Assembly (NCBI GenBank): GCA_948144175.1
Contig: CANXME010000501.1
Location: 372,001-436,000 of the forward strand
Origin: Closterium sp. NIES-65
Taxonomy: Eukaryota > Streptophyta > Zygnematophyceae > Desmidiales > Closteriaceae
Direction: 5' to 3'
Length of the DNA: 64,000 bases
Shown here: positions 3,001 through 61,575 of the stretch, piece by piece
Position numbering within the stretch: the first letter of the stretch is position 1
How the letters are laid out: each line of letters starts with the position of its first letter
The notes under the pieces: model-generated
What the model was told of the DNA's origin: nothing
Seen by the model: the letters and a program-made list of their open reading frames with translations, nothing else
Database searches by the model: none
Position numbers and translations under genes: made by a program

Positions 3001-5785
3001 ACCGTCATCATCGTCACACTCGGGTCGATCTTGGGCGGCAGGGGGATCTGGATTTGATACTTGTTGCGATCCACTCTGAAACACAAGATGATTGAACATG
3101 GATACAGGAAATCAAGAGCAGGGAAACGACAATCAAGAAACGAGAAACTGGGTCTGGTCTTCATGGTGATTTGTATCCAATTATGGTGCGAACATCTCAG
3201 GAGAAAACTGACCGAGCTGACTTTTCAGTCAACTCAAAAGTCTGATTCGTATCCAATTCTGGTGCGAACATCTCAGGAGAAAACCATCAGCATAGGCCCG
3301 AATCTAGATGGCATGGTGGTTGGCACGCGCGGCATTGGCAGATGGCATAAAATGGCATGGCATGGACGGTAGGGATGGGATAGAACAGCATGCACGCACT
3401 CACCCCACTCGCACTCACCCCACTTTCATGCACGCACTCACCCCACTCGCACTCACCCCACTTTCATGCACGCACTCACCCCACTCGCACTCACCCCACT
3501 TTCATGCACGCACTCACCCCACTCTCATGCCCTCCTCAATGTCGGTCGGTGACACGCGGTCCCCCAGCCCCACCACGAACTGCACACACACACAGCAAGC
3601 ACGCACACAGAGGATACAGTCAAGTTCACAATGAGGCTCTGATGCTGAAAGAAATGTCTTCCTAAGCGCCTCAAGATTCGGCGGCCCCCAAGCCCCACCA
3701 TGAACTGCACAAACACAGCAAGCGCATACAGGGAGACGAGTACGCCGCCGATGCGATGAATGTAGTACAGATGGATGGAGCAACAGAGAATACAAATACA
3801 CAAACGAGAAACACCACACTAACAGACCAGATTAACAGCCAAGTCAATAACGAGGCTGCATCACACAAGAGAAATACAGACATGGGAAATGGAGTAATGG
3901 AGATTGAAACAATGCCAGTCCACAGACGTGCGTGTGCATGGGTTGGGGAGGGGGACAGGAAGTGCGGGGGGGGTACGGACACAGGAAAGGAGGCATACTT
4001 GGGGAGTCCTGGCATACAGGGGGAGGGGCGCACCTTGGCGATCTGCTTCACGTTGATGACGTATTTGGCGTCGTCCGTGTTGGGGTTGATGATCTTGGTG
4101 CAGCGCGCCACCTGGCAGGGCGAGAGGGGATAGGGGGAAGGAGGAAGATGAGAGGAGAAGAGAGAGAAACGGAGAGAGGGAAAAGAAGAGAGGAGAATGA
4201 AAAGGGCGCTGGTTGAACAACGAGATCGAGGAAGAAGCGAGCTGGGTTTGAGTCAGGCGTGCTCAGTCAGTCAGGCGTGCTCAGTCAGTCAGGCGTGCTC
4301 AGTCAGTCAGGCGTAATCAGTCAGACGTGATCAGTCAGGCACACTCATTCAGTCAATTGTGGTCAGTCAGTCAGGCGAGCTCAGTCAGTCGTAAAAAAGG
4401 CAAGCCTAACGGGTGTGCTTGCCTGCAGCGGCTGCTCCTCCTGCATCATCTGCTTGTCCGACACTAGATCCCACTGGCTCGGTGCAGCCAGACGTCAGGT
4501 GCCTTGTACGTCGACTCAATAATGGTTCAGATAAAGCAGGAAGTGTGTGGGTGCGTGGGGGTGGGTGTGCTTGCCTGCAGCGGCTGCTCCTCCTGCATCA
4601 TCTGCTTGTCCGACACCAAATCCCACTGGCTTGGTGCTGCCAATCCAGTATCCGACTCCTTGATCCCTGCAATGGAAACATCACAGACATTCAGGCGACA
4701 CCATGGGACATAAAGCGGCATCAGGCGATGTCAAGTGACACAGAACGACATCCGACGAGATCATGTGGCGACAGATAGCATCGACTTACAGGAGGCGAAA
4801 TCAGGTGACATCAAGTACAAAACCGGAGAACAAAGATAGAGCAACGAATTTGGATGTCCAGCTTCCTTGTCAAACAGATTAAAAGGAATTCTAGGTATAA
4901 TCTGGTCAATAGGATGACAATTCCCGAGAAAGAGCTGGAGCTAACGTGCTTGATGCATTAGAAACATAAATTCACACTCTAAACGTGACGAATTCGTCTC
5001 TTGAACCTATCAGGCAGCTTTTTCTCCGTGTCGACCGCTGCAAGGACGATACGAAATTCGCTCAACTCGTAACGAAGGTTGACAGCTGATGGACAACTGA
5101 CGGACAACTGACGGACCGCAGATGGACAACTGACGGACAGCTGACGGACAACTGACGGACAACTGACGGACCGCAGATGGACCGTTACCAGCGAGACGAC
5201 TTTGAGAGGTCGTTGACCGTTACGACAAATAAACTCATCGTCAGCAACATAATCAAACACTCAAGTGCCTAGACTTACCGCATAGGTCGTTGACCTTCTT
5301 GGCCATGTCCTTGATATCCTTCTCAACCTTTTTGATAGACGTCGAGTACGGGCCAAGACCCTATATGTTGAAATAAATCGGGGAAAAGGAAAGAGGAAAC
5401 AATCGAAACTATTCATGGGTGGAAGCTTGGATGTCAGACGACTGAATTACGTAACGATCTGGACACACGAATCGGGTCCAAACATCTGCAGAGAATCTGA
5501 ACGGCAATGAAGCCTCCGCAAATAGTCTCCTATCCTAAGGTCCCTGCGAAACGCACATAGGACTTTAAAAAAACGATATCGTCTTTGGAGACGTCGAATC
5601 GTACTCATCTAAAACGTATGCGAACGGACATATGTCTTCAGCAGAGCGATATCGTCCTCATCGATACGTCTAATGGTACTAATCTAAAACGCATGCCAAC
5701 GCACATATGTCTTTAAAAGAGCGATATCGTCCTCATCGAGGGCCGGCGGGTTCTTCTCGTCGAGATCCGGATCGATTTCCGGCAT
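1..5785 (-). CDS. RPT1: 26S proteasome regulatory subunit 7 (RPT1), 3' end outside window
   Basis: AAA-ATPase of the 19S proteasome base, which unfolds ubiquitinated substrates in cytosol and nucleus. Eight exons were read by matching to the RPT1 family: 5705-5785, 5279-5360, 4575-4666, 4034-4111, 3518-3579, 2931-3075, 1283-1501 and 1-119 (running off the edge). The first seven total 759 nt (253 codons) with consistent phases. The protein starts [20 protein letters not shown]; later motifs are [18 protein letters not shown], the Walker A stretch [15 protein letters not shown] in exon 7 and the Walker B stretch [10 protein letters not shown] in exon 8. Intron 3 appears to use a GC donor (CAG|gcaagc). 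Almost every exon is flanked by partial copies of itself, listed separately. The C-terminal half lies left of base 1. Identity is very secure; exact splice sites are inferred. Confidence 0.95.
175..844 (-). repeat. Five partial copies of RPT1 exon 8, each with an acceptor
   Basis: Copies of the exon encoding [20 protein letters not shown] lie at about 175-277, 343-407, 500-546, 630-688 and 746-844, all in intron 7 upstream of the complete exon at 1-119. Each starts with AG|ATGGC and is cut at a different point inside the exon. The outermost copy (746-844) reads [10 protein letters not shown] and then changes frame, so splicing to it would destroy Walker B. Confidence 0.9.
1029..1297 (-). repeat. 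Splice-donor minisatellite, 14-15 bp unit, RPT1 exon 7/intron 7
   Basis: On the plus strand this is a run of about 17 units such as ctcacctggaacagct. Read on the minus strand each unit is CTGTTCCAG|GTGAG, the last codons of exon 7 (LFQ) followed by a donor. Units differ by one or two bases, some reading caaatgg in place of cacctgg and so losing the GT. The array begins at the true exon 7 donor (1283/1282). Confidence 0.93.
1560..2480 (-). repeat. Seven copies of the 5' part of RPT1 exon 7, partly a 281-bp dimeric array
   Basis: Copies of acceptor plus [20 protein letters not shown] lie near 1561-1648, 1700-1782, 1850-1930, 1986-2063, 2128-2211, 2268-2344 and 2405-2480, upstream of the full exon at 1283-1501. 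Two different intron spacers alternate, giving a dimer period of about 281 bp (1567, 1848, 2129). All copies stop before the Walker A codons. Confidence 0.9.
2503..2870 (-). repeat. Three copies of the 3' part of RPT1 exon 6, with donors
   Basis: Copies encoding roughly [20 protein letters not shown] through EKMRE plus donor lie at about 2503-2590, 2633-2730 and 2771-2870, downstream of complete exon 6 (2931-3075). Period is about 130-140 bp. The copy at 2503-2590 lacks the DV codons ([11 protein letters not shown]). Confidence 0.88.
3219..3242. repeat. Junction palindrome (imperfect)
   Basis: CTTTTCAGTCAACTCAAAAG with one arm mismatch. It is flanked by diverged direct repeats of about 45 bp (about 3170-3217 and 3243-3290), both containing ggtgcgaacatctcaggaga. 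It lies in RPT1 intron 5. Confidence 0.75.
3390..3512 (-). repeat. 38-bp minisatellite at the RPT1 exon 5 donor
   Basis: Three units built from gcacgcactcaccccactcg lie directly downstream of the exon 5 donor (3518/3517). On the minus strand they repeat the donor-like gtgagtgcg sequence. Confidence 0.8.
3675..3712 (-). repeat. Partial copy of RPT1 exon 5 with acceptor
   Basis: Minus-strand reading is cag|TTCATGGTGGGGCTTGG, encoding FMVGLG against FVVGLG in the full exon at 3518-3579. It lies upstream of that exon and has no donor. Confidence 0.75.
4245..4392. repeat. TCAG-rich minisatellite in RPT1 intron 3
   Basis: Units of about 18 bp such as gtgctcagtcagtcaggc repeat about seven times with drift. 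Confidence 0.85.
4425..4492 (-). repeat. Partial copy of RPT1 exon 3 with its GC donor
   Basis: The minus strand encodes [18 protein letters not shown] followed by gcaagc, as in the full exon at 4575-4666. The 5' part (IKESDTGL) is missing. It is intact in frame, so it could be an alternative exon end. Confidence 0.85.
5085..5185. repeat. Short tandem repeat in RPT1 intron 2
   Basis: Units ggacaactgac and ggaccgcagat alternate about nine times, inside intron 2 downstream of exon 2. Confidence 0.8.
5551..5672 (-). repeat. Two decayed copies of the 3' end of RPT1 exon 1
   Basis: Stretches near 5629-5671 and 5551-5597 resemble the exon 1 end ([11 protein letters not shown] plus donor) but carry several substitutions. 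They lie just downstream of the real donor at 5705/5704, so even the first exon shows donor-side copies. Confidence 0.7.
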
Positions 5786-6449
5786 GATGGCCGCTCACGC
5801 GCTCGCACGGAAAGAAAAGGCTCTTGCGATATTAGAAGACGGCCTACCCGACGGCCGAGTTTAGGAAGCAAGGATTCGAGCCTTGAGATCTAAGCGGGAT
5901 AGCGAGTCGGCGACCCAATAAAAACAGATTGTTGGCCGAGCCTTGGGAACTCACCACGTCCTTATGACTCGTGTGTTGGGAGGAGGGAAGGGAATCCAGG
6001 CTTCGTCTGTTGAGTGCCGCACTTAAAATACAGTGCGTACTTTACTGTATCTATCCCCGATCATAACATGTTATTGCGCAGATTTGAAGCTCTTTGTCAC
6101 AGACAATCTCTTGTTGCTCCATTCTATTACTGGTAGCCTCAGAATTCAGACTTGAACGAAAAATACCGTTGCTCTTTGTGAGTCACCACAATAGCCGAGA
6201 ACAACCACGTATCATATACCGAGCTCGTCTATTTACACTAAACACCAGAACCAAAAAGGTACTAAGAGTATTAGGGTACATTCCGCTGTGGACACTGTCC
6301 CAATCGATGTCGAGTGTACCGCTCCGAACCGAACTAAACCAGAGACGCAAAAATTTCGAAACTAGGGTGCAATTTGGTGTAATACGATGCAGTGCGGTAG
6401 AAACGATTGAGACACTTTTGATTGGGACATGTCAGCGCGGAATGTACCC
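5786..6449. other. Intergenic: RPT1 promoter side and aminotransferase 3' side
   Basis: Both flanking genes are on the minus strand, so this 664-bp stretch should hold the RPT1 5' UTR and promoter and the 3' UTR of the aminotransferase gene. No convincing ORF, TATA box or repeat was seen. Confidence 0.6.
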
Positions 6450-61074: not shown

Positions 61075-61575
61075 GGGCCAACACCCTCATGGATCGCTAC
61101 AAGTCACAGTACCGCATCTTCAACGGTGATATCGCGGTGAGATGAGATGGGTGATTGTGTGTGGGGTGTGGTTGTGTCTGATGATACCAAGGAATGGGTG
61201 GGTGTGGGCCAACAGCCTCATGGATCGCTACAAGTCAGAGTACCACATCTGTAATTATGATATCAAGGTGAGATGAGAGGGTAGGAGGGACAGAGGGGAT
61301 GGATGTATGTGCATGTGGGTGGGTGGGCGACTTTTGAGACGTCTCAAAAGATGAGAGGGTAGGAGGGACAGAGGGGATGGATGTATGTGCATGTGGGTGG
61401 GTGGGCGACTTTTGAGACGTCTCAAAAGATGAGAGGGTAGGAGGGACAGAGGGGATGGATGCATGTGCATGTGGGTGTGTGGGCCAACACTCTCATGGAT
61501 CACTACAAGTCACGTGAAAGAAGGAGTGTTTTGAGACGTCTCAAAAGTACCGCATCTTCAATGATGATATCGAGG
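61075..61575 (+). repeat. Early 3' copies of NAD-ME exon 8 with three palindromes
   Basis: Diverged copies at 61079-61137 (IFNGDIA) and 61207-61268 (ICNYDIK). Then a 78-bp direct repeat is interrupted by perfect palindromes CTTTTGAGACGTCTCAAAAG at 61331-61350 and 61409-61428. A third palindrome (61529-61546) interrupts a copy between KSQ and YRIF codons. Confidence 0.93.

Follow-up and report, generated by a model that had tools for sequence, protein, structure and literature searches.

Very short palindromes dispersed through the DNA of a green alga have been described before. In Volvox carteri, dispersed palindromes of ~50 nt on average lie in introns and spacers of organelle DNA and are held to be selfish; they fill the mitochondrial and plastid DNA, their nuclear copies (~0.06%) are held to be inert, and they have loops of 3-5 nt, for example TAAA (PMC2670323). 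The term "direct repeat" does not appear in the text of that paper (PMC2670323). Here we analyse a family of palindromes, TTTTGAG-N4-CTCAAAA, in a 64-kb stretch of Closterium sp. NIES-65 (C501:372001-436000, hereafter the window) and in the 874-Mb assembly to which it belongs (2,400 contigs, partly redundant). Like those of Volvox, these are very short dispersed palindromes in a green alga; unlike them, they occur in ~30,000 exact copies across a large eukaryotic assembly, have a symmetric core in which the 3-5 nt TAAA/TTTA loop is not found, and usually have a direct repeat on both sides. Our results suggest, at a little less than an even chance, that each of these palindromes is a copy of a tiny dispersed insert made at broken DNA, both broken ends receiving a tail from the same template.

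Other described systems share single features with this family. Twin priming of L1 leaves two fragments of a long RNA, inverted and with an internal deletion, and for the same element dual priming, in which a second reverse transcriptase works on the other strand, has been proposed (PMC2837659). There is a likeness, in that both ends of a staggered target prime on the element's RNA and yield inverted pieces between target-site duplications (PMC2837659); here, however, the two arms share one sequence and join at a fixed point. Synthesis that fills in overhangs at break ends before these are joined produces small tandem duplications (PMC8355091), and this known route might account for the direct repeats seen here; a constant insert lies between the copies in our case, and none is mentioned in the abstract of that paper (PMC8355091). 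Introners also are small elements present in large numbers inside genes, and some of their families have inverted ends, but they act as introns and, in some families, are flanked by repeats of 3-9 bp, as opposed to the 13-94 bp found here (PMC9860276).

Census, core and arms of the palindromes

Scanning the window for TTTTGAGNNNNCTCAAAA (TTTTGAG-N4-CTCAAAA) with up to two mismatches returned 23 sites, 11 of which are exact, whereas 100 dinucleotide shuffles averaged 0.13 sites and gave 1 at most. An earlier note made on this sequence had reported about twenty such loci, and both that figure and the fifteen coordinates it named hold up, as each coordinate has a palindrome within 0-5 bases. The genome-wide search proposed there yielded 30,327 exact copies, against 4 for a control pattern read backwards; a chance origin is ruled out by the window shuffles and this control. 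Alignments show that some contigs repeat one place (C6/C347/C1658 and C501/C1548), so that distinct palindrome places are fewer than 30,327 and genome counts are inflated by some factor; C229/C277 and C38/C217 are probable further cases, judging from like sequence or hit lists. Mean density is one exact palindrome per 29 kb in the assembly and one site per 5.8 kb in the window, and no site with up to two mismatches was seen in four stretches of other contigs (L026-L029, 30.5 kb), so that density must be uneven. About 250 kb was sampled beyond the window. These palindromes do not lie mainly in organelle DNA, given their spread over the assembly and the presence of HSP70 and HSP90 genes in the window. 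A search for viral or bacterial matches did not find the exact 20-mer with ACGT core in genome_contigs. In viral_contigs the single match (L005), a palindrome flanked by two genes of which the second is resolvase-like on our own reading, looks like a terminator coincidence; a phage or bacterial origin was discarded.

The spacing between the arms was studied in 264 kb (the window and L006-L025), a non-random sample largely chosen around matches, in which array sites are counted singly. At spacings of 0-40 there are 62 TTTTGAG...CTCAAAA pairs, 56 of them at a spacing of four, none at 0-3 or 5-10, and the remaining six at 11, 26, 32 and 33. The cores of the 56 exact sites are TCGA (20), ACGT (17), GCGC (12) and AATT (3), plus four others one change away, meaning that 52 of the 56 are self-complementary and leave no hairpin loop. 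The earlier note had listed ACGT, TCGA, AATT and a few imperfect cores, all of which are present, and had missed GCGC. Assembly-wide, ACGT-core palindromes number 5,047, and we estimate ~15,800 for TCGA and ~7,200 for GCGC from half-arm counts (23,699 and 10,801, respectively) that require a non-A base at one place and only CTCAA on the far side. Mixed TC/AC cores (TCGT/ACGA) occur 114 times and C-N-N-G cores just 8 times. The near-absence of the latter indicates that the cores form a few families rather than any tetramer able to anneal, and annealing alone was rejected as the cause of their self-complementarity.

The palindrome extends past 18 bp. Among 31 clusters whose inner arms are exact, the paired bases match at position 10 in 26 and at position 11 in 18, when base composition would predict shares of 0.37 and 0.32. 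Many ACGT-core half-arms read GCCACGTG-N12-TTTTGAG-AC, the longest arm recognised, which reaches up to 29 nt from the centre, or 58 bp for both arms. CACGTG-N12-TTTTGAGAC occurs 1,288 times in the assembly (control 0), and 1,071 of these full AC arms continue exactly into GTCTC; the common TCGA-core arm, ACGAGGTGAC-TTTTGAGTC, occurs 803 times with an exact far side (control 0). Longer arms, discrete subfamilies and copy number all go beyond what the earlier note had described.

Sequence variation within the arms suggests a common source for the two arms of each insert. The N12 spacer is highly diverse among loci and C-poor, and by our own reading has AG near its middle in many of the matches listed. 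In ten elements, selected because both long arms could be read, N12 differs at 1.4 of 12 positions within an element, compared to 5.8 of 12 between elements (permutation p = 5e-6). A search of the AATT family with two arm places left variable (A/T and C/T) matched 137 places, and among the 50 listed 17 are A/A, 27 T/T and 6 mixed; the same variant is thus found in both arms at 44 places where 26 are expected, with 24 mixed ones expected, although the associated p of 7e-8 assumes independent places and some may be redundant contigs of each other. The shared N12 and shared variants imply that both arms of one insert derive from one source sequence, or are equalised each cycle, and each palindrome seems to be built from one half-arm copied twice.

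The arms are shortened on either side roughly independently. Should cutting be independent, the chance of a full partner would equal the overall share of full arms. Full-length AC arms with an exact centre are 1,071 against ~10,094 half-arms (~10.6%, from counts that demand slightly different letters), and full-length TC arms are 803 of ~31,600 (~2.5%, the denominator being estimated), so that outer ends are intact in a minority of half-arms. Palindromes full on both sides were found at 3 places in the ACGT family (6 of ~100 matches listed) and at 1 place in the TCGA family (2 of ~100 matches listed), in rough agreement with these shares, as the lists include arrays and redundant contigs. The centre, on the other hand, is kept: at all 21 places fetched for a full arm (L030-L051, with L042 and L043 being one place) the sequence passes the centre into the other arm. 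A longer element with an interior was considered and rejected, since the 11 loci without an exact centre (L032, L039, L041, L044-L051) all enter the other arm. By eye, the centres of L045, L047, L050 and L041 are rearranged or repeated: short pieces lie between the arms or around them, much as template switching by a polymerase at the hairpin would leave them. Separately, half-arms (GACTTTTGAGGCACTTTTGC...) form a tandem array in L015 (7344-7502), where no palindrome was seen within two mismatches.

Direct repeats flanking the palindromes

In the usual layout one palindrome lies between two direct copies of local sequence (R). The loci of the window are given below, all with strand "."; fractions are identical positions between R copies.

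3209-3242: insert; palindrome 3222-3239, core TCAA; R 3167-3208 and 3243-3284, 40/42
10679-10711: insert; palindrome 10694-10711, core ACGT; R 10622-10678 and 10712-10768, 49/57
11213-11231: palindrome 11214-11231, core TCGA; R 11162-11212 and 11232-11282, 47/51
11359-11376: palindrome TTTTGAGTTGACTCAAGA; no clear R, effective score below threshold
11973-11990: palindrome, core ACGC; R 11944-11973 and 11995-12024, 29/30; decayed second palindrome 12022-12041
13111-13142: insert; palindrome 13111-13128, core ACAT; R 13065-13110 and 13143-13188, 45/46
18865-18897: insert, right arm readable on to CACGTG; palindrome 18862-18891 (30 bp, perfect), core ACGT; R 18815-18864 and 18898-18947, 44/50
25433-25450: decayed palindrome (2 mismatches); no clear R
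35699-35737: insert; palindrome 35711-35728, core AATT; R 35631-35698 and 35738-35805, 58/68
36482-36547: palindromes 36488-36505 (ACGC) and 36525-36542 (TTGA); R 36421-36481 and 36548-36608, 54/59
42660-42699: palindrome and tandem GAGACGTCTCAA units; R 42620-42659 and 42700-42739, 35/35 aligned columns
43322-43346: insert; palindrome 43326-43349 (24 bp, perfect), core AATT; short R 43309-43321 and 43347-43359, 13/13
44702-44917: array; palindromes at 44702, 44768, 44834 and 44900, core ACGT; five R, period 66
51625-51642: palindrome, core TCGA; R 51565-51625 and 51645-51705, 54/61; native R end GGGTGACT, arm-like
54858-54887: 30-bp insert; palindrome 54864-54881, core AATT, arms GGGAGT/GGGTGC; R 54827-54857 and 54888-54918, 31/31
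59813-59830: palindrome, core TCGA, near-palindromic over 30 bp; no clear R
61332-61427: palindromes 61332-61349 and 61410-61427, core ACGT; three R, period 78, 58/58
61514-61545: 32-bp insert in one tandem-exon copy; left arm GTGAAAGAAGGAGTG; palindrome 61529-61546, its last A shared with the target; no own R

The R pairs were called by local alignment of the left and right flanks, both copies having to end near the centre, after setting aside, from the 142 sites found, 85 clustered ones and 4 near stretch ends. A pair was found at 36 of 53 isolated sites, compared to 840 of 3,597 random positions (23%; Fisher p ~1e-11) and 25 of 185 other palindromes (14%; p ~5e-14), with a length of 13-94 bp (median 45.5 bp). 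We think that random positions score this high because the region is full of tandem repeats. By set, the count is 10/12 in the window, 20/31 in L006-L025 and 6/10 at the long-arm loci; excluding these last 10 gives 30/43, or 16/43 under a stricter rule that 90 of 2,793 random positions (3.2%) also pass. The palindromes are therefore more frequent at repeat junctions than elsewhere, as the earlier note had proposed. Its placement of the palindromes between two direct repeats is right for 10 of the 12 isolated window sites; 11359, 25433 and 59813 have no clear R, and the palindrome at 61529 sits in one exon copy without a duplication of its own.

The junctions show microhomology. Beyond the shorter arm, native bases match the longer arm in register above shifted controls at positions 1-6 (59, 56, 39, 58, 35 and 52%, versus 22-30%); over positions 2-6 the match is 66/138, compared to ~176/690 in the controls, a count rebuilt from rounded shares. 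Native ends that resemble an arm include GGGTGACT at 51625 and GAGGGTTGCTTT at L007 9467, and the native R end carries CACGTG exactly in L049 and with a 2-base offset in L034. At the outer R ends there is no excess of palindrome remnants (4/72 with up to 4 mismatches, versus 4.9% at random positions).

The window has 18 empty exon copies, TACAAGTCACAGTACCGC, that read straight through where one copy carries the 32-bp insert 61514-61545; this reads as a gain of sequence, and the word "footprint", used in the earlier note, is not quite apt. Several R-bearing loci (for example 13111, 18868, 43329, L012 9299, L013 8971 and L018 6749) have a diverged relative elsewhere that spans the junction with one R and no palindrome; being 72-89% alike, these relatives may be taken as support, not proof, of an empty state. 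A 54-bp palindrome of the ACGT family, full on both sides, lies in L042/L043 (two contigs that cover one place) inside an older TCGA-family palindrome, flanked by AGTCGACTCAAAAAT and AGTCGACTCAAGAAT, a 15-bp duplication. The three arrays that were read (44702-44917, 61332-61427 and L012 7990-8155) have n palindromes and n+1 R and, unlike isolated sites, repeat the palindrome together with R, while at L012 4156-4232 one R is present three times, alternating with two palindromes that differ in core. The palindromes of the related stretches 42620-42739 and 43309-43359 also differ in core but lie close to the same target word (AACCCGTTCTGGT), which may mark a hot spot.

A possible origin at broken ends and its alternatives

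The origin that we favour, tentatively, would begin with a double break with staggered ends. Each 3' end would anneal by microhomology somewhere along the same short template, the complement of GCCACGTG-N12-TTTTGAG-AC or of its TC, GC or AA relatives, and both would be extended to the fixed end of that template. The two equal tails could then meet head to head through their self-complementary ends, giving a fixed-arm palindrome with a self-complementary core, while fill-in of the single-stranded overhangs would leave R on both sides, and breaks with little overhang would give inserts without R. The template might be either a small RNA, on which reverse transcription is dual-primed, or a DNA copy on which an end-joining polymerase acts; if RNA, it would be 20-60 nt long with its 5' end at the centre (GNCUCAAAA...). 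Arrays would arise by later unequal exchange. Such a scheme, which resembles the dual priming of retroelements or break repair, would yield a fixed centre, no centre-less arms among those read, separate arm lengths and shared variants. Somewhat more doubtfully, the mobile unit may be the half-arm itself, of ~10-29 nt, which would spread by being copied from one template onto the two 3' ends of a staggered break, the tails then closing head to head; the palindrome would thereby be rebuilt at each insertion, and a tandem duplication of the target, parts of exons included, would be a by-product. Of the ideas in the earlier note, the repair scar and the footprint of a tiny mobile element are both close to the favoured origin, in which insert and duplication arrive together at a break.

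A number of observations weigh against this origin by templated tails. The asymmetric AATT form GGGAGT/GGGTGC recurs at C310/C637 and C501/C1548 (window 54864), which align over the palindrome alone, and it looks as though the whole palindrome was copied at least once. The arms of L045 and L047 are separated by a short additional sequence that, by eye, consists of pieces of the arms or of local DNA. No clear R was found at 17 of the 53 isolated sites, including L030 and L032, both full on both sides; R identity and palindrome decay are not significantly correlated (rho -0.25, p 0.15), so that a common age of R and palindrome is not shown. At positions 7-8 the microhomology (20 and 32%) does not exceed that of the controls, and at position 1 it is inflated partly by how R alignments end. 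The precision of the centre would require exact joining, and no presence/absence difference was seen between redundant contigs (54864; L014 3337), where all copies are identical. Finally, no template gene, RNA or enzyme turned up, although no search aimed at them was made.

Whole-palindrome copying of this kind is what one would expect if a hairpin RNA of ~58 nt were reverse transcribed in full at a nicked target by a LINE-like (long interspersed element) or Penelope-like enzyme, as a passenger resembling short interspersed elements (SINEs), with R as the target-site duplication and short arms as truncations. Variable target-site duplications and junction microhomology are usual for target-primed reverse transcription, and both are seen here, along with the recurrence of GGGAGT/GGGTGC at different places. 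One-sided copying, however, should often stop before the centre, yet 1,071 of 1,288 full AC arms reach GTCTC exactly, and the 11 arms without it that were read still enter the other arm, with additional sequence intervening in L045 and L047; moreover, the same variant in both arms goes unexplained unless selection on the RNA keeps the stem. As for a SINE-like or LINE-like class, the duplication does vary in length, but instead of one fixed end and one truncated end both sides are shortened and the centre is kept (a tail was not sought systematically), and it is this want of a single fixed end that the class fails on; Rfam returned no family at threshold within the window. We regard this RNA passenger as unlikely. 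Less likely still is a miniature DNA transposon consisting of two terminal inverted repeats without an interior, with R as a target-site duplication of exceptional and variable length left by some transposase. Long arms with a conserved outer hexamer, CACGTG, and a conserved inner TTTTGAG, copies full on both sides (L030, L032, L042) and insertion along with a flanking duplication all speak for it, and with miniature inverted-repeat transposable elements (MITEs) and foldback elements the palindromes share small size, lack of coding sequence, inverted repeats and high copy number. Cut-and-paste elements make a target duplication of fixed length, though, and MITEs are expected to have a short fixed one and intact outer ends. 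Inverted repeats are indeed present here, in arms of up to 29 nt from the centre, but R spans 13-94 bp at 36 of 53 sites and is missing from the insert at 61514, and most half-arms are cut short from outside; duplication length and outer ends thus do not fit the MITE class, and the 21 full-arm places hold no long interior, only short extra sequence in L045 and L047.

The remaining alternatives appear much weaker. That an old palindrome forms a hairpin and provokes slippage or breakage, duplicating its flank, was also suggested in the earlier note, and is in keeping with hairpin-prone sequence adjoining duplications, with the centres of L045 and L047, which by eye look like template switching at a hairpin, and with the later amplification seen in arrays. 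Slippage would copy the palindrome with its flank, and this is so in arrays, but isolated R-bearing sites have one palindrome per two R; together with the lack of remnants at outer R ends (4/72) and the exon copy at 61529, which has an insert without duplication, this makes the hairpin quite improbable as the cause. A similarly slight probability attaches to the capture, as filler at breaks, of pre-existing palindromic DNA fragments of 40-60 bp trimmed by nucleases: it would account for trimming at both ends, for R from filled overhangs and for inserts with and without R, but trimming should sometimes pass the centre, when none of the 21 full-arm places stops before it, and the sameness of the arm variants would need a separate cause. 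An assembly or library artefact such as a ligated adapter is hardly credible. Cores and neighbours do spell what we take to be the SalI, AatII, EcoRI and NarI restriction sites, as any such palindrome would, but the copies are diverged, nested and arranged in arrays, have long and diverse arms, and are identical in separate contigs of one place (C501/C1548; C6/C347/C1658). From these comparisons and the literature searched, the palindromic insert matches no class of mobile or repair element that we could identify; four exact 18-mers, one per core, had no match in the open paper texts searched, and no title or abstract start describing such elements was found in literature from which most subscription papers and preprints were outside scope.

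Genomic surroundings and implications

By our own reading, the window holds intron-rich eukaryotic genes, with clear reading frames for HSP70 and HSP90, and a search run with a bacterial setting found no tRNA in it. An AAA-ATPase-like gene, recognised by eye on the minus strand at 1-3100, contains stretches repeated about three to seven times; one piece of it tested against Pfam returned nothing. At 9596-10295 there are ~38 copies of an 18-bp G+C-rich tandem repeat (CGCGCGCGTTGGTCCAGG). Long, near-identical tandem arrays, partly exon-like, occupy 61546-64000, 13691-15711 and 55824-57602, with units of 139, 130 and 133-433 bp, respectively, which indicates that exons are often duplicated in part in this region independently of the palindromes.

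If the favoured origin is correct, a sequence of a few tens of bases would have spread to tens of thousands of places, usually leaving a tandem duplication of its target, and would form a readable, genome-wide record of staggered breaks and templated end repair. Were the half-arm itself the mobile unit, we would know of no smaller dispersed genetic element, and it would steadily give rise to tandem duplications. The favoured origin would also lead one to ask from what template, and by which polymerase, a short constant sequence is added to broken ends, and would provide one source of the part-duplicated exons and introns in Closterium sp. NIES-65.

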